Shown in pieces: positions 4,921-25,404 of a stretch of DNA of 31,519 nt. Every line of letters begins with the position of its first letter. Position 1 is the first letter of the stretch. This DNA comes from a virus. Location of the stretch: positions 1 to 31,519 of the IMG/VR virus record IMGVR_UViG_3300044821_000159; one strand, given 5' to 3'. Below the pieces are notes generated by a model, which saw only the letters and a program-made list of their open reading frames with translations, made no database searches and was not told the DNA's origin. Made by a program: the position numbers and the translations under genes.

Positions 4921-5150
4921 CCGGCTACATTGCCCTCGCCCACGTAGTGCTCCAGGCAGAGTACGCCCTGATTGAGGTTCCCTGGATGATGGGGTCCAAG
5001 CCCGCTTGGGATCCAGAGGAGGATGCTCTGCCCGGGGACGGGGACGGGTACGGGTACGGGGACGGGGACGGGCACGGGTACGGGTACGGGTACGGGCACG
5101 GGGCTGACGTGGTGACTGGCGCGCAACTGTGCGCTAGGCTCGCCCCATGA
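4917..5150 (+). CDS. Hypothetical protein, LIEVPW-motif paralogue B with Gly-Asp/Tyr/His repeat tail
   Basis: 77 aa, ATG overlapping the HAD stop (ATGA). Residues about 14-22 read AEYALIEVPW, matching the gene at 4025. From about residue 39 the chain is an alternation of Gly with Asp, Tyr or His, encoded by eleven consecutive GGGNAC hexamers, and it ends in a short non-repetitive tail. It looks like a shortened copy of paralogue A whose tail expanded by slippage. The function is unknown; the repeat would be flexible and might bind metal through Asp/His. Confidence 0.6.
   Translation: MTGYIALAHVVLQAEYALIEVPWMMGSKPAWDPEEDALPGDGDGYGYGDGDGHGYGYGYGHGADVVTGAQLCARLAP
5034..5099 (+). repeat. Tandem GGGNAC hexamer array (11 units), G-quadruplex candidate
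   Basis: Eleven head-to-tail units of GGGNAC with N = G, T or C and no interruption, followed by another GGGG. It lies in frame within the small gene at 4917-5150, where each unit encodes Gly plus Asp, Tyr or His. Because every unit begins with at least three G and is separated by three other bases, the plus strand carries about twelve regularly spaced G-tracts. Confidence 0.9.
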
Positions 5151-7921: not shown

Positions 7922-8908
7922 GTGGCCCGCCCCGCAAAGCCCAGCCCGCGCGAGTACTCGCGCATCGCGCGCCTGCACGCCGCCACGGTCGACCGGGTGA
8001 CCATCCGCGGCAGCGCCGTGCGGCTGAAGGCCCTGTACGAGCAGGCGCTCGACGAGCTGGCGCGCGACTCGCGGCGGTACTTTACCCGAGCACAGTGGAC
8101 GGAGAGCTTCACGGCGCACCAGCACCGCATCGTCCTGGCCCAGCTGCGCGCCGGGGTGCGGCAACTGAGCATCCGCATGGGGCAGGACGTGACCGCCCAC
8201 GCCCGCGATGCGGCGGCCGAGGGCGTGGCCACCACGCTGGCCAACATCCGCCGCCTGGAGGCGCACTACGGCGGCACCACGCCTGTGCTGAGCGTGGAGG
8301 AGGCCGCGCAGTTCGCCGGGGCGGGCGTGCCGGGGCGCGCCACGTCGCTCCTGCGCGACGCCACGGGCCACGGGCTGCTGCCCGACCGTGTGCAGACGTC
8401 CATGGCGCGGTACGGGGCGCACCTGGTGGGGGCGTTCGAGCAGGAGCTGGCCCTGTCCATGCTGCGGCAGGAGACCCTGGGCGACACGATCACCCGCATC
8501 CAGACGCGCGGCGGACTCGAGTGGTGGCAGGCTGAGCGCATCGCGCGCACCGAAACGGCCTGGGCCCTGAATCAGGGCAGTGCTGATGCCGTGGCCTACG
8601 CCGCCAGCGACGAGATGCCCGACATGCTGCTCCGCTGGAACGAACACGTGGACGACGTGACCGGCGCCCCGTACGACAACCGCGTCGCACCGGACTCGAT
8701 GGCGATGCACGGGCAGGCCGTGCGCCCGGGGGAGCAGTTCGTCATGCCGATCGACGAGCGCGTCGCTGCGGTAAGGTGGGGGATGAAGTACAGCTTCCCC
8801 CCGAACCGACCTATGGATCGCGCGGTCGTAGGGGCGTGGCGTCCCCATTGGGGTATTTCTGCGTGGAAATGGGAAGGAGGAACGCGTGTACCTGTTATGG
8901 GCGAATGA
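7922..8908 (+). CDS. Minor head protein, Mu gpF / SPP1 gp7-like head morphogenesis protein
   Basis: 328 aa from the GTG at 7922. The N-terminal two thirds are helical. The conserved C-terminal signature of the family is present: AERIARTETAWALNQGSADA (about residues 203-222), RWNEHVDD, MHGQAVRPGE, and a terminal PPNRPMDRA...WRPHW block. In related phages this protein enters the head with the portal during assembly and can travel with the DNA. The cysteine pair often seen in the central DERTCxxC motif is missing here. Its distance from the portal, with a 4 kb accessory cassette between, is unusual, since the two are normally adjacent. Confidence 0.85.
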   Translation: MARPAKPSPREYSRIARLHAATVDRVTIRGSAVRLKALYEQALDELARDSRRYFTRAQWTESFTAHQHRIVLAQLRAGVRQLSIRMGQDVTAHARDAAAEGVATTLANIRRLEAHYGGTTPVLSVEEAAQFAGAGVPGRATSLLRDATGHGLLPDRVQTSMARYGAHLVGAFEQELALSMLRQETLGDTITRIQTRGGLEWWQAERIARTETAWALNQGSADAVAYAASDEMPDMLLRWNEHVDDVTGAPYDNRVAPDSMAMHGQAVRPGEQFVMPIDERVAAVRWGMKYSFPPNRPMDRAVVGAWRPHWGISAWKWEGGTRVPVMGE

Positions 8909-8923
8909 TGCCATCATTTGGGC

Positions 8924-9436
8924 ATGGTACACAACCCAGGGCTTGCCGTTCTCACGAACCTCTACATCACCAAGCGCCTGAGCACACGGCAGTGCGCCGT
9001 GGTGCTGGGCGTTGCCAGTCAGCGCACGGTGAGCCGGTGGCTGGGCGAAGTTGGCATCTCCACACGGTCGATCTCCGAGGCGAAACAGGGGCAGAAGCCT
9101 GCGCCACACACCGTCGAAGCGTCCGTCCGCGCACGCCGAAAGCAGGTGCTAGAAGGGCGCCCTATGGTTGGGTACAAGATGCGCGGTGACGGATACATCG
9201 CCATCGCAGTTCCAGAGCATCCTTTCGCCACGAAAGATGGCTACGTGCTGGAACACCGCCTGGTGATGGAGAAGCACCTCGGGCGGTACCTGCTCCCACA
9301 CGAGGATGTGCACCACGAAGACGAGAATCGGCAGAACAACGCGTTGGAGAACCTGAAGCTGCTCACGCACGCCGACCACCTGCGCCAGCACTACCACGAG
9401 CGCGGCGTCGACCCGACTACGGGGCGTTTCAGGTAG
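8924..9436 (+). CDS. HNH endonuclease with N-terminal helix-turn-helix (homing type)
   Basis: 170 aa from the ATG at 8924; a TTG two codons earlier (8918) is possible. Residues about 19-42 form an HTH-like segment (STRQCAVVLG then SQRTVSRWLG). The C-terminal half carries an HNH_3-type core: EHRLVMEKHLGRYL, VHHEDENRQNN, LENLKLLTHADH, where the His pair and Asn residues form the metal-binding catalytic site. Such genes are typical free-standing homing endonucleases that insert beside conserved phage genes. It follows the minor head gene by 15 bases and overlaps convergently with the next minus-strand gene by 8 bases. Confidence 0.82.
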   Translation: MVHNPGLAVLTNLYITKRLSTRQCAVVLGVASQRTVSRWLGEVGISTRSISEAKQGQKPAPHTVEASVRARRKQVLEGRPMVGYKMRGDGYIAIAVPEHPFATKDGYVLEHRLVMEKHLGRYLLPHEDVHHEDENRQNNALENLKLLTHADHLRQHYHERGVDPTTGRFR

Positions 9437-10029: not shown

Positions 10030-10575
10030 TCAATTCGACGGGTAGCAAGCGAGGTGCGGGGTACCGGCCGAATCGCGTACCGGCGTGCACGCCGTGGTCG
10101 GCGGACAGTCGGCGGCCGTCGTCGTGCACGGCGCAAGGCACGCCCAGCCCGGCTGCCGCGGCAGGCTGGAGCACACGTCCTCCGAGGGGCACGTACCCGC
10201 CACCGGATCGGACGTGCTCGGTTGGCACCGCGCGTAGCACAGGCCGGCGGCACCGCCCGACGCCGCGCCACACTGGAGACCAGGGCAGCACCCGCTCTGG
10301 GGCGCATCCCCGTCAGACGATGTGCACGCCCCGCCCGCACCGCTGCACACGGGGCCCGTGTCCGCCGGGGGTTGGCCGGCGTCGGCCGTACCCGTGTCCG
10401 CGGGGGGCTGGGCCATGTCGACCGCGGGCTGCGCGTCGGGCGTTGCGCCCGCCCCGGCGTCGCCCAGGTCCGCCAGCACGTGGTCGGGGGCCGGTGCCCC
10501 GGCGTCGTCATCGGCGGGGCCGGGGGCGCCGCACGCCGCGAGAAGAACCACTGCGAGAATTCCGAGCTTGTTCAT
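10030..10575 (-). CDS. Predicted lipoprotein, cysteine-rich (moron candidate)
   Basis: 181 aa from the ATG at 10575, which has GGAG six bases upstream; a second ATG four codons earlier is less well placed. The N-terminus is a textbook type II signal: MNKLGILAVVLLAAC with lipobox LAAC, cleavage before C15 and lipid attachment there. After it comes a flexible Asp/Pro/Ala-rich linker with a near repeat (QPPADTG twice), then a domain with about 14 cysteines, including a Cys-Cys pair, likely disulfide-bonded. It should reside in the cell envelope. Phage lipoproteins of this kind can act in superinfection exclusion or host surface change; here that role is inference. The style resembles Myxococcota lipoproteins. 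Confidence 0.75.
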   Translation of the reverse strand: MNKLGILAVVLLAACGAPGPADDDAGAPAPDHVLADLGDAGAGATPDAQPAVDMAQPPADTGTADAGQPPADTGPVCSGAGGACTSSDGDAPQSGCCPGLQCGAASGGAAGLCYARCQPSTSDPVAGTCPSEDVCSSLPRQPGWACLAPCTTTAADCPPTTACTPVRDSAGTPHLACYPSN

Positions 10576-10656
10576 CGTCGTCTCCATGTTGTGCAGCGTG
10601 CCCCGTGCGCGGTGTCCCGACCACCCGTTAGGATGGGCAGGCACTGCGCGCGATGG

Positions 10657-20152: not shown

Positions 20153-22207
20153 ATGAGCTTCGCACGTCGTTTCGCGTTCAATCCCGGTGCCGCCGTCATC
20201 AGCCAGATCGAAGGCGTGGTCATCATCCGGCAGACGCCCCCCTCGCCCATCACGGGCGTGATCGAGGGCGTGGTCGGCATGGTGGGTGAGTTCCAGGACT
20301 CCACCTACGGCATCAGCGTGAGCCCCGCCGGGCAGATCGGCGGGAATCCGCGCGCGGTGCGCATTCTCACCTCGAGCGACCAGATCACGTACCTGGGTGG
20401 CTTCGACGAGACGATTGGCGAGTTCGGCATCTCGATGGGCAACGGCTTCGTCGAACTGGCGTCGAAGAGCTTCACGGGGCTGGTCGTGGTACCCGTCGAC
20501 AACCTGAGCCCCACCACGTCGGGCCAGTTCTCAAGCGGCGTGCGCATGTGGCGCGACCTGCCCACCTGCATCTCGGCGACCAACCCGAATCCGATTGTGC
20601 CCGTGAGCGCGGCGCTCATCCCGGCGGGGCTCCAATTCCAGGACGGCAGCGCGCACCGCGCGCGCGTGGCCGGGGCGTTCACGTTCGGCGGGCAGCAGGC
20701 GTACGAGACGGGCACCGACGGCGCCATCACCCTGACGGGCACGCCCGCCGCATCGCAGACGTTCACGTCGGCTGGCGGGAGCTTCATCACCAAGGGCGTG
20801 AAGGTCGGCGACATCCTCGTGCTCGGCGTGATCGGCGGGGCCGGCGCGCTCGGGTCGAATGCGGGCACCTACCGCGTCACGGCAGTGACCGACGCGACCG
20901 ATCTCGTCGTCGAGAAGTTGAACGGCGCCACGTTCGATTGGGTGTCGGGTACGGCGCAGCCGTGGCGGCTGCACGTGGCCGCGGCGGCGGACAGCTCCGG
21001 CACGGCGAACTTGCACCTGGCCCTGGTGCAGACGGGCGGCGCTGGGTACCTGATCCCGATGCGCCCGCTCGACGCGAGCATCGCCATCGACGCGGCCATC
21101 ACGCCCACGGTGCCCAGTGCAGCGGGCACGGCCAGCTCGTGGAACCCGACCAGCGGGCTCACGGGGCGCACCAATCACATCACGGGCGACTCGGGTGGCA
21201 ATCACTCGATCATCTACGATGCGGCCATCACGGGGCCCAACGTCGCGGCCAGTGCGGCGCTCGACGCGCGCTACGTGGCGGCCATCAGCGCCATGCGCCA
21301 GGTGCAGCCCCCCGCCAGCCTGATCGACATCGTCGTGAGCGCCCGCAAGAGCAGCACGATCCGCAACACGATCTCGAGCCACTGCCAAACGGCCACGGCG
21401 CAGGGGCTCACGCGGCGCGGGGTCAATTCCCCGGCGCTCAGCGTCCAGACGACCCAAGCCGCCATTGCCAACACCGACCCGGGCGTGGGGGTCAACCGTA
21501 CCGAACGGCTCGACTACAGCTGGCCGGGGTGCGTCGTGTACATCCCGCAGGCCGTGGGCTTCCCGCTCAACGGTGCGGACGGCAGCACCGTGCTCGACGG
21601 CACGCTCGACACGACTTTCGACACGTGGCTCGCGTCGATCGAGAGCAACGTGCCGCCCGAGAACAACCCGGGGCAGGTGGCCCCGCCCGTACCCCAGGTG
21701 CTCGCGCCGGTGCTCGGGTACCAACGCGCCACGCCGCAGCTCCAGCTCCAGGTGGAGGACTACATCGCGCTGAAGGCGGCGGGCGTGGCGGCGCTGTTCA
21801 TGGACCCCGACACGGGACCGCAGATCGAATCGGGTGTCACCACGTCGCTCAACGCGGCCGAGCTCACCATCCAGCGGGCGCGCATGGCGGACTTCATCGA
21901 GGACTCGATCGCCGTGGCGATGAAGCCCTTCAGCAAGCTGAACCAGACGACGCAGCTGATCGACACGGAACTGGGCGAGATCAACGGGTTCTTGAACGAT
22001 CTTCAGAGCCCGAACAACCCCAGCGCGCAGCGCATCGTCGGGTTTTTCGTCGATCCGGTAAACGGACAGACGGCGAGCCTGACGGCGCAGGGCATCACCG
22101 TGTTTCTCATCTCGGTGCAGCTGCTGCATTCACAGGACAACCTCGTCCTCCAGACGAACATCGGCTTCGGCGTGGTGCAGACCACCGTGGTGAGCGGGCA
22201 GCAGTAA
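20153..22207 (+). CDS. Contractile tail sheath protein
   Basis: 684 aa from the ATG at 20153. The sheath surrounds the tail tube and contracts on infection. The N-terminus starts with a short beta strand, then PSPITGVIEGVVGMVGEFQD and GGFDETIGEFG, resembling the opening of many sheath proteins. The C-terminal third carries the conserved part (INGFLNDLQSPNNPSAQRIVGFFVD then strands), which holds sheath-sheath contacts. A beta-rich extra domain lies about residues 185-285 (GDILVLGVIGGAG, AGTYRVTAVTDATDLVVEKL). It identifies the phage as a myovirus. A terminator follows. Confidence 0.85.
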   Translation: MSFARRFAFNPGAAVISQIEGVVIIRQTPPSPITGVIEGVVGMVGEFQDSTYGISVSPAGQIGGNPRAVRILTSSDQITYLGGFDETIGEFGISMGNGFVELASKSFTGLVVVPVDNLSPTTSGQFSSGVRMWRDLPTCISATNPNPIVPVSAALIPAGLQFQDGSAHRARVAGAFTFGGQQAYETGTDGAITLTGTPAASQTFTSAGGSFITKGVKVGDILVLGVIGGAGALGSNAGTYRVTAVTDATDLVVEKLNGATFDWVSGTAQPWRLHVAAAADSSGTANLHLALVQTGGAGYLIPMRPLDASIAIDAAITPTVPSAAGTASSWNPTSGLTGRTNHITGDSGGNHSIIYDAAITGPNVAASAALDARYVAAISAMRQVQPPASLIDIVVSARKSSTIRNTISSHCQTATAQGLTRRGVNSPALSVQTTQAAIANTDPGVGVNRTERLDYSWPGCVVYIPQAVGFPLNGADGSTVLDGTLDTTFDTWLASIESNVPPENNPGQVAPPVPQVLAPVLGYQRATPQLQLQVEDYIALKAAGVAALFMDPDTGPQIESGVTTSLNAAELTIQRARMADFIEDSIAVAMKPFSKLNQTTQLIDTELGEINGFLNDLQSPNNPSAQRIVGFFVDPVNGQTASLTAQGITVFLISVQLLHSQDNLVLQTNIGFGVVQTTVVSGQQ

Positions 22208-22332: not shown

Positions 22333-22764
22333 ATGGCGTCCCCCCGAGTTCGAGGCCAGGAGACGGCGACCACGATCGCCATCAACAACGTGCCCCAGCT
22401 CCAGACGACGGACATCCGCTCGCTGGAGATGACGTGGGAGCTTGAGGTGCAGAAGGAGGGCTACCTCGGCGAGACGACCGACCGGCGCGACTCGATCTAC
22501 CGCGGCGTGAGCGGCAAGCAGCAGTATCACTTCGAGAACCCGGCGATCTTCGGCATCGTCACGAGCTTCGTGGGCAAGGCGCAGCGCCGCACGCCGGGCG
22601 TGCAGATCAACACGAAGACGACGATTCAGTTCGCGAGCGGGCTGCGCACGCGCCTGTTGATCCCGGACATCTCCCCAGGGGGCATCCCTCTGTCGTTCTC
22701 AGATCGCGCCGCGTTCGGCACGATCGACTTCCCGTACGAGGCGGCGGACGCGCAACTCGTCTGA
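22333..22764 (+). CDS. Tail tube protein
   Basis: 143 aa from the ATG at 22333 with TGGAGA upstream. The tube proteins of contractile tails are small beta-barrel proteins that follow the sheath gene. Here a beta pattern is evident (EMTWELEVQKEGYLGETTDR, TKTTIQFASGLRTRLLIPD), with a loop between strands typical of the fold, and a length close to the usual 140-170 aa. The family is inferred from position and size. Confidence 0.75.
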   Translation: MASPRVRGQETATTIAINNVPQLQTTDIRSLEMTWELEVQKEGYLGETTDRRDSIYRGVSGKQQYHFENPAIFGIVTSFVGKAQRRTPGVQINTKTTIQFASGLRTRLLIPDISPGGIPLSFSDRAAFGTIDFPYEAADAQLV

Positions 22765-22791: not shown

Positions 22792-23241
22792 ATGTCGACC
22801 ACGTTTCTCGATCCAGGTCTCGCGGCCCAGGCCGCCAACGGCGGCAACGGCGCGGGGACACAGCTGCCCAACGGCGCCACGGTGGGCGGTGCCCCGCGCG
22901 CCATCTACGTGCATGCTGTGCCCGCCCCGATTGCTGCGGTCACGGGCGTCACGCACATCGGCATCGTCAAGCTCACGCCAAACGAGGAATTGGGCGCGTT
23001 CGCGCGCGCGCACGGTGACGGTGGGGCGCTGTCGCACGAACTGGTCAAGGAGTCATTCCGGCAGATCCGCGACGCGCAGGGCGCACGCCGGCTGGGCACG
23101 TTCGACGGATCGGTCGACCGCATCTGGGGCGAGCTTGACCCGGTCGTGCGCGTGCTCGTGTCGACCGCGTACAACTTCCATCACCAGCCGGACAAGGACC
23201 TGACCGCAGATTTTCTGAAGAGCTTCGAGACTACCGTCTAG
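22792..23241 (+). CDS. Tail assembly chaperone, first frame (gpG-like)
   Basis: 149 aa, ATG with TAGGAGC upstream. Located between tube and tape measure genes, where double-stranded DNA phages encode assembly chaperones made as a short and a frameshifted long product. The N-terminus is Gly/Asn-rich; a beta strand follows (IGIVKLTPNEELGAFARAH), then helices (ALSHELVKESFRQIRDA, LDPVVRVLVSTAYNF). It ends ADFLKSFETTV at the TAG at 23239-23241. A TTTT at 23211-23214 allows a -1 slip into the next frame. Confidence 0.75.
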   Translation: MSTTFLDPGLAAQAANGGNGAGTQLPNGATVGGAPRAIYVHAVPAPIAAVTGVTHIGIVKLTPNEELGAFARAHGDGGALSHELVKESFRQIRDAQGARRLGTFDGSVDRIWGELDPVVRVLVSTAYNFHHQPDKDLTADFLKSFETTV

Positions 23242-23456
23242 GTTTCGCGGCTTTCGCGCTGGGGCTTGGCGACGTTGTCGAGCGCAAGCGCAATCTGTGG
23301 AAGACGATCGCCTTCGCGGCACGGTACGGGTCCACGCCCCCGACCGCGCTGCTGGGGCGGATGCTCACGGTGAACGAGCTGCACGACTTCGCACAGGCGC
23401 TGGGCGATCTGCTGAGGGAAGAGTCCGCAACCGCGAGGGCCGCCACCGATGGCTGA
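23214..23456 (+). CDS. Tail assembly chaperone extension, -1 frame (gpGT-like, no own start)
   Basis: This -1 frame is open from 23139 to the TGA at 23454-23456 and has no ATG, GTG or TTG until a Met about 32 codons before the end. From 23214 it reads as a good protein: EELRDYRLGFAAFALGLG, then ERKRNLWKTIAFAARYG, and a terminal helix MLTVNELHDFAQALGDLL. It is therefore best explained as a frameshift extension of the upstream gene, as with lambda G-GT. The last 8 bases overlap the tape measure start. The exact slip point is not fixed; TTTT at 23211-23214 is the best candidate. Confidence 0.68.
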   Translation, partial: SEELRDYRLGFAAFALGLGDVVERKRNLWKTIAFAARYGSTPPTALLGRMLTVNELHDFAQALGDLLREESATARAATDG

Positions 23457-25404
23457 CGTATCCCGCACCGTCGAGACGATCTTCAAGGTGACGGGGACGG
23501 CCGCCGTCACCAGCGCCATGGGATCGGTCGCGTCGAGCGCGGAAGCCACCGGCTCGAGCCTGATGGGCATGCTGGGCGGCGTGCGCACGCTGGCCCTGGT
23601 GGGCGTGGGCGCCATGACGGGCCTTGGCGCTCAGATGATCCACATGCAGTCCGCCGCCGAGGGGACGCAGCAGTCGATCGCCGGGGCGCTGTCCGCGTTC
23701 GGCGCGGCCGGGTCGTTCCAGGAGGGGCTCGAGCAGTCGCGCGGGGTGATGGAGATCATCAACCGCGAGGCCGCCGCCCTGCCCGGCAGCGCCGAGGACT
23801 ACGTGCAGGTGTTCCGCACGGCGCTGCCCGCGGCCATGGCGTCGGGGTTTCAGAACATCGAGCAGATCGCGCACTTCACCAACCAGATGACGGCCATCGC
23901 CAGCGCGAACCAGGAATCGAGCATGGAGGCCGGCATGGACATGTCGCGCATGCTCCAGGGGCGCGCCGGGGCCGAGGTGAAGCTGTGGCGCACGATCAGC
24001 CCGCTCATCGGCAAGACGGCCGAGCAGTTCAACCACATGAGCGCGCCCGCCCGCGCCCAGGCGATGCAGGGGGCCATCCACCGGTACGCCGACACGCTCT
24101 CGCACATGGGCGACACGTGGGACGCGATCAGCGGCACGACGTCGCAGTACCTGATCCAGATGGCGCGCGCTGCGTCGATGCCGCTGTTCGAGGCGGCCAA
24201 GACGCAGCTCAAGGGCGTCAACGAGTGGCTCGAGCGCAACAACGACGCGATCGTGCACACCGGGCAGCTCATCGCACGGCACATGGTCGACGGCGTCGAG
24301 GCCGTGCGCGCCCGCGTGACGGCGCTGATCCCCCTGTTCCAGCGCATTGGCGGGGCCGTGGGGGGCGTTGGGGCGTGGGCCGGGGCGCACATGGGCACGG
24401 TGGCTCGCGCCGTGGGCGGCGCCGCCCTGGGCCCGGCGGGGAGCATGCTGGCGGGCGGGGCCATGTCGCTCGCGGCCAGCCACCCGGCCGAGATCGCCGC
24501 GGCCGGCGACGCCCTGCTGGGCATGTTCCACCGGATGGCCGGCATGCTGGAGCCGCTCGTCGCCATGGGTGACGCGCTGTCGAACGGCATCGGCGGCATG
24601 ATGGCCGGGGCACTGCCGGGCGTGGTGAGCGGGTTCACGGCGCTGGGCGACCACCTCACCGGATTCGTGAGCACGGTGGCCCCGGCGCTGACCGACGTGT
24701 TCAACACGCTGAGCGCCACGGTGGGGGGCCCGTTCGGCACGGCCATCGGCAGTGTGGTGAGCCTGCTCAGCGGGGCACTGGGCGACGCGCTGAGCACTGC
24801 GGGCGACTCGATCAAAGAACTGGCGCACCAGTTCAACAACGCAATCTTGACGCTCGAGTCGTGGACCGAGCGAGCTAGCAGCTCAATTTCGCGGTTCGGG
24901 ACGTGGGCCAACAACCTGCTCGGTGGCGGGCACGAGAACGACTTCAGCAATGCGGTCCACATGGCGTTCGGCAACCCGATGCAGGACATGATCGCCATGC
25001 AGGAGCGGTCCGACCTGACGGTCGTGAACTCGATGATGGCCGCGCTGCACAGCATGGGGCTGCCCACGGCGGGTACCGGTGCAGTGGCGGGCCCCGCCGC
25101 GCAGATGCAGGAGAGCCTCGACTCGATCAGCAACTCGCTCGGGGGCGCCGGTGGCAATCCGTGGGACCGCGCTGCGGCGAATCATGCGCGTGCGACCCGG
25201 CGCCTGCACGGCGCCAACGCCCCCGGCGCACGCGGCGGCGCCCACACGGTGAACGACTTCCGGCACAGCCGCTTCGAGATCATGCAGAAGTTCGCCGAGG
25301 GGTACGACCCCGACAGGATTGCAATCGCTTTCACTCACGACCTGGAGCGCACGGCCGACCGGCGCCTGAGCGGGCAGTTCGAGCCCGCGCACGCGGTGCG
25401 GTAG
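23449..25404 (+). CDS. Tail tape measure protein
   Basis: 651 aa. The tape measure sets tail length and is ejected ahead of DNA. Residues 1-40 are polar/helical, then hydrophobic stretches occur at about 47-64 (TLALVGVGAMTGLGAQMI) and several in the middle and later (GGVGAWAGAHMG, GGAALGPAGSMLAGGAMSLA, GIGGMMAGALPGVVSGF, GTAIGSVVSLLSGALGDAL). The rest is Ala/Met-rich and helical. By the usual rule of about 1.5 angstrom per residue, the tail would be roughly 95-100 nm. It overlaps the chaperone frame by 8 bases and ends 3 bases before the next gene. Confidence 0.82.
   Translation: MADVSRTVETIFKVTGTAAVTSAMGSVASSAEATGSSLMGMLGGVRTLALVGVGAMTGLGAQMIHMQSAAEGTQQSIAGALSAFGAAGSFQEGLEQSRGVMEIINREAAALPGSAEDYVQVFRTALPAAMASGFQNIEQIAHFTNQMTAIASANQESSMEAGMDMSRMLQGRAGAEVKLWRTISPLIGKTAEQFNHMSAPARAQAMQGAIHRYADTLSHMGDTWDAISGTTSQYLIQMARAASMPLFEAAKTQLKGVNEWLERNNDAIVHTGQLIARHMVDGVEAVRARVTALIPLFQRIGGAVGGVGAWAGAHMGTVARAVGGAALGPAGSMLAGGAMSLAASHPAEIAAAGDALLGMFHRMAGMLEPLVAMGDALSNGIGGMMAGALPGVVSGFTALGDHLTGFVSTVAPALTDVFNTLSATVGGPFGTAIGSVVSLLSGALGDALSTAGDSIKELAHQFNNAILTLESWTERASSSISRFGTWANNLLGGGHENDFSNAVHMAFGNPMQDMIAMQERSDLTVVNSMMAALHSMGLPTAGTGAVAGPAAQMQESLDSISNSLGGAGGNPWDRAAANHARATRRLHGANAPGARGGAHTVNDFRHSRFEIMQKFAEGYDPDRIAIAFTHDLERTADRRLSGQFEPAHAVR

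Follow-up and report, generated by a model that had tools for sequence, protein, structure and literature searches.

A probable programmed -1 ribosomal frameshift at a T_TTT tetramer in the tail assembly chaperone gene of an uncultivated contractile-tailed phage

The stretch of DNA analysed here (hereafter the window) is the complete 31,519-base IMG/VR virus record IMGVR_UViG_3300044821_000159, which derives from an uncultivated virus. Since portal, capsid, sheath, tape measure and baseplate genes are all present in this record, it is considered to represent a contractile-tailed phage. The tail genes are encoded on the plus strand in the order sheath, tube, chaperone and tape measure, the chaperone locus being located between the tube and tape measure genes. 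The tail sheath gene (20153..22207), which served as bait for relatives, shows similarity to phrog_23 (tail sheath, E 2.5e-07) and the tape measure gene (23449..25404) to phrog_167 (tail length tape measure, E 3.8e-05). A PHROG search with the product of the gene at 22333..22764 returned no match; this gene is designated as encoding the tail tube protein on the basis of its position after the sheath gene, and homologues are found in 23 of the 24 relatives identified in the first scan. Other features of the record include an HNH endonuclease domain at 8918-9436 (PF13392, E 7.7e-10), possibly belonging to a homing endonuclease, and a tandem repeat of the hexamer CGGGGA at 5033-5103 (approximately 12 copies), which lies within an open reading frame and gives rise to a Gly/Asp/Tyr-rich stretch. 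A cysteine-rich, lipoprotein-like open reading frame on the minus strand (10030-10644) resembles, by eye, secreted proteins of myxobacteria and found no match in Pfam.

The chaperone locus comprises two overlapping open frames on the plus strand. The first (22792..23241) encodes a gpG-like protein of 149 residues, terminates at a TAG codon (23239-23241) and has homologues at the equivalent position in 75 further loci. The second, in the -1 frame relative to the first, is open from 23139 to a TGA stop at 23454-23456 and overlaps the 3' end of the first by 103 nt, while its own end is overlapped for 8 nt by the start of the tape measure gene. Downstream of the proposed slip site, this frame specifies a C-terminal extension of 80 residues with the character of a T-like domain (23214..23456), and the predicted fusion of the two frames is 221 residues long. 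These frames and coordinates, which had been put forward in an earlier sequence-only reading, were verified, as was the claim that the extension lacks a usable start: from 23139 onwards no ATG, GTG or TTG is encountered in the -1 frame before the ATG at 23361, approximately 150 nt beyond the slip site. The -1 frame had also been judged protein-like after about 23214, and its GC content by codon position after the slip site (0.70/0.50/0.79) is indeed of the coding type, as in the upstream gene (0.72/0.50/0.84). This periodicity is confined to the -1 frame and is absent from the other two phases.

Scans of viral contigs with single proteins, using either chaperone half or the tube protein, revealed no relatives. 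Relatives were gathered via the sheath, which gave 24 loci with the sheath protein and 80 with a sheath alignment, and three contigs from bacterial genomes were added to these sheath-derived loci. No relatives of the sheath, tube or late-control-like proteins were found in deposited phage records, and the capsid protein has three distant relatives there. Both chaperone halves recur between the tube and tape measure genes in the IMG/VR relatives. Profile searches placed the extension in the -1 frame in 72 of the 72 loci that possess both halves, a count that leaves out four loci without an extension match. The seeds of the extension profile were translated from TTTT, and the cleanest independent check is provided by the window's own two proteins, which as separate queries located both halves in 12 relatives, always in the -1 relation. 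Once near-copies had been removed, the first half was represented by 66 loci, which were used for the protein alignment and for the classification of slip sites. Variations upstream of the chaperone are observed in two of the relatives: locus L017 has tandem tube-protein matches (7938-8348 and 8398-8826), possibly reflecting a duplicated tube gene, and in locus L005 (9013-13667) approximately 4.6 kb separates the sheath match from the tube gene, the distance being far less in most relatives.

The proposed slip site is T TTT CTG (23211..23217, plus strand), in which the tetramer T_TTT occupies 23211-23214 and the slipping codon TTT, in frame 0, occupies 23212-23214. This is an in-phase Z_ZZN tetramer of the U_UU.Y class, and the only other in-phase triplet run within the 103-nt overlap is C_CCG. 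TTTT had been singled out as the best slip point from the sequence of the window, and the relatives retain it at the level of codons. In a protein-only alignment, which disregards codons, the slip column (window residue 141) contains TTT in 60 of the 66 loci and TTC in a further four, and T is the last base of the preceding codon in 95% of cases, compared with a third-position T share of 11% across the gene. The background share of TTT among Phe codons is 0.18, giving an expectation of 11 TTT codons among 62, against 60 observed; the nominal P value of 4e-50 is indicative only, as the alignment rows are related by descent. Elsewhere in the upstream genes an in-phase T_TTT occurs at 2 of 6747 other codons. 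The occurrence of T_TTT at the slip column is thus far above chance.

No canonical X_XXY_YYZ heptamer is present at this position in the window, where the two possible phases read T TTT CTG and A GAT TTT. Across the group, 34 of the 66 loci carry a heptamer in either phase and 32 carry only a tetramer. The latter comprise 30 loci with T_TTT and no heptamer, including the window, and two with T_TTC. The heptamer-bearing loci comprise T TTT TTN (21/66), T_TTT accompanied by GGGTTTT or AAATTTT as a heptamer in the alternative phase (9/66), and other heptamers (4/66). In a few lineages (L036, L079, L084 and L037), AAAAAAA, GGGAAAA or GGGTTTC stands at the slip site instead. When mapped on the sheath tree, T TTT TTN predominates in the outer clade, and the clade of the window contains mixed classes with many changes, 22 in total. 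The sequence-only reading was correct in denying a canonical heptamer but overstated how exotic the slip would be, given that U_UU.U is documented (PMC4066793). In Escherichia coli, U_UU.C and U_UU.U rank with the more shift-prone tetramers provided that they are accompanied by a stimulator; the tetramer on its own barely shifts and depends on this help (PMC4066793). Because T_TTT is a documented Z_ZZN tetramer, known from insertion sequences of the IS1 and IS3 families (PMC4066793), this slip mechanism is uncommon rather than unprecedented.

Candidate stimulators are present on both sides of the tetramer. Upstream, an SD-like AAGGA (23194..23198, plus strand), located 12 nt before the tetramer, is a probable stimulator. 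Family-wide, anti-SD pairing peaks in segments ending approximately 9-12 nt before the tetramer (mean -6.2 kcal/mol), a peak that stands out against synonymous recoding (z -4.3); the element in the window is weaker than the family median. Downstream, a CGCG/CGCG mini-hairpin (about 23246-23258) had been pointed out, but this does not appear in the predicted fold, which prefers a stem-loop of 13 bp at 23219..23254 (plus strand; 6 bp, a 1x1 mismatch, 7 bp and an 8-nt loop; -14.5 kcal/mol). This possible stimulator begins 4 nt after the TTT and spans the frame-0 stop codon. It is modestly better than shuffled sequence, and its role is suggestive only, because z is -2.15 when a 40-nt piece is folded (8 of 200 shuffles being as good) but -0.31 for a 48-nt piece. 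Among the relatives, there is an excess of RNA structure directly after the slip site as a group mean, and very strong downstream hairpins are found in loci L006, L029 and L030. RNAalifold detected no consensus pairs in 39 aligned downstream regions, so the stem-loop is without covariation support, and an Rfam search gave no match. Structure differs between the tetramer and heptamer classes overall (P 0.003) but not inside the clade of the window (P 0.22), and this difference may therefore be a clade effect. Both kinds of stimulator are clear at the level of the group and modest in the window itself. Some tailed phages have been reported to shift without stimulators (PMC5009743).

AlphaFold models both halves of the putative fusion with a pLDDT of 89. 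The first half has a predicted mixed alpha/beta fold whose best match in the PDB is the HK97 tail assembly chaperone 2ob9 (E 0.35, weak), with YqbN also listed; comparison with viral models returned several named tail assembly chaperones together with Mu FS-gp41, the best named match having an E value of 0.008. The matches to 2ob9 and Mu FS-gp41 are weak (TM about 0.3-0.5), and the predicted fold can be described as weakly chaperone-like. The model of the extension is all-helical and a fold search with it yielded no match; an E8 match in the PDB was set aside, as it covered 23 residues. Searches of Pfam and PHROG gave no chaperone family match for either half, including the extension, for which such a profile match had been envisaged, and the P2 gpE family profile was not matched. 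The name chaperone is based on the combination of gene position, frameshift layout and weak fold matches, which supports the gpG/gpGT-type assignment made in the sequence-only reading.

We consider, with a probability of roughly 0.93, that the locus uses a programmed -1 ribosomal frameshift to produce two gpG/gpGT-type tail assembly chaperones that share a single start codon. The slippage itself, its efficiency and the functions of the proteins we infer as follows. Most ribosomes would read 22792-23241 to give the 149-residue gpG-like protein, and a minority would slip back by one base at T_TTT (23211-23214), the Phe-tRNA on TTT 23212-23214 re-pairing with the identical overlapping TTT at 23211-23213. 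Translation would then continue as ...DLTADF-SEELRDYRLGF... to 23453, yielding the 221-residue gpGT-like fusion. The upstream SD-like AAGGA probably helps the slip and the downstream stem-loop may do so. On the lambda model, binding of the tape measure protein would fall to the shared N-terminal part, and recruitment of tube subunits to the extension.

It is possible, if rather doubtful, that the slip takes place in the P site, with peptidyl-tRNA on the TTT slipping before the A site (CTG) is occupied. This is a sub-variant of the programmed frameshift and is not exclusive of it, the contrast being with A-site re-pairing on the Z_ZZN tetramer; the junction DF-S would be the same in either case. 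In most loci the next codon is CTN or TTN, as if the site were akin to the T TTT TTN heptamers, in which TTT is the P-site codon, and slippage of peptidyl-tRNA only, discussed for a dnaX variant (PMC5009743), also counts for this possibility. Nevertheless, the Leu or Phe codon may reflect conservation at the protein level, and the stems of the clearest hairpins begin 2-4 nt after the TTT, which under P-site slippage would place them at or inside the A-site codon. SD spacing gave no separation between the two sites (P 0.14). The A site is slightly favoured as the location of the TTT at the slip.

It is very unlikely that the locus represents two separate genes, with the extension translated from a start of its own, which may be a codon other than AUG, or by reinitiation past the frame-0 stop. 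In some relatives, such as L004 with its ATGA, a start codon does occur close to where frame 0 terminates, but the position of the first start codon of the extension is not conserved, ranging from 8 to 194 nt past the slip site, and in the window and several relatives none lies upstream of the conserved core of the extension. Separate initiation would, moreover, not account for the fact that NNT TTT is conserved in frame 0 at the level of codons. Even less probable is transcriptional slippage at the T run or a +1 slip at TTT_C. Runs of T are slippery for polymerases and UUU_Ynn is +1-prone in bacteria (PMC5009743), but transcriptional slippage has been reported at longer runs (Tn, n > 8; PMC3711429) than the four T residues here, a +1 slip on TTT C would run straight into TGA, and in every case the conserved partner frame is the -1 frame. 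A sequencing or assembly error splitting one gene could produce such a layout in one genome through a single-base difference, but is effectively excluded by the same -1 relation in 72 loci, the majority of which are divergent and lie on independent contigs.

A frameshift in the tail chaperone is in itself already known. What is new is that sites consisting of the tetramer only (32/66) and heptamers interchange within one phage group. We tentatively suggest that the tetramer-only site may be a working and long-lived alternative to the heptamer, repeatedly exchanged with it on the tree and compensated by stronger downstream RNA structure. With the two types of site replacing one another in a single homologous gene, the group provides a natural experiment on the trade-off between slip-site strength and stimulators. 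Tools that recognise only heptamers would miss the slip site in approximately half of these phages, leaving the long chaperone unannotated; PRFect, for which eight names of -1 motifs are listed, has no simple run of four among them (PMC10885494).

The nearest known system is gpE/gpE+E' of the P2 FETUD tail operon (PMC3091744). As in the phage of the window, P2 has a contractile tail with the chaperone located between tube and tape measure, and an extension that overlaps the start of the tape measure gene and has no ribosome site of its own; as proposed for the window, a -1 slip takes place on a run of T near the end of the first frame (TTTTTTG in P2; PMC3091744, PMC3931495). In contrast, the P2 site is a heptamer whereas the window has T_TTT CTG, and downstream hairpins are reportedly lacking in P2-like phages (PMC3091744), whereas the group of the window has an excess of structure there. 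Elements of the IS1 and IS3 families carry U_UU.U and U_UU.C tetramers at their productive -1 sites (PMC4066793), although the product there is a transposase rather than a tail chaperone. The first half resembles the HK97 tail assembly chaperone and Mu FS-gp41 in predicted fold, with weak matches. Mu uses a -2 shift. Lambda, which slips at GGGAAAG, is siphoviral, unlike the contractile-tailed phage of the window. As proposed for the window, lambda gpG/gpGT employs one start, a -1 shift and two products, the long form being made in the minority and the functions being connected with the tape measure and the tail tube (PMC5009743).
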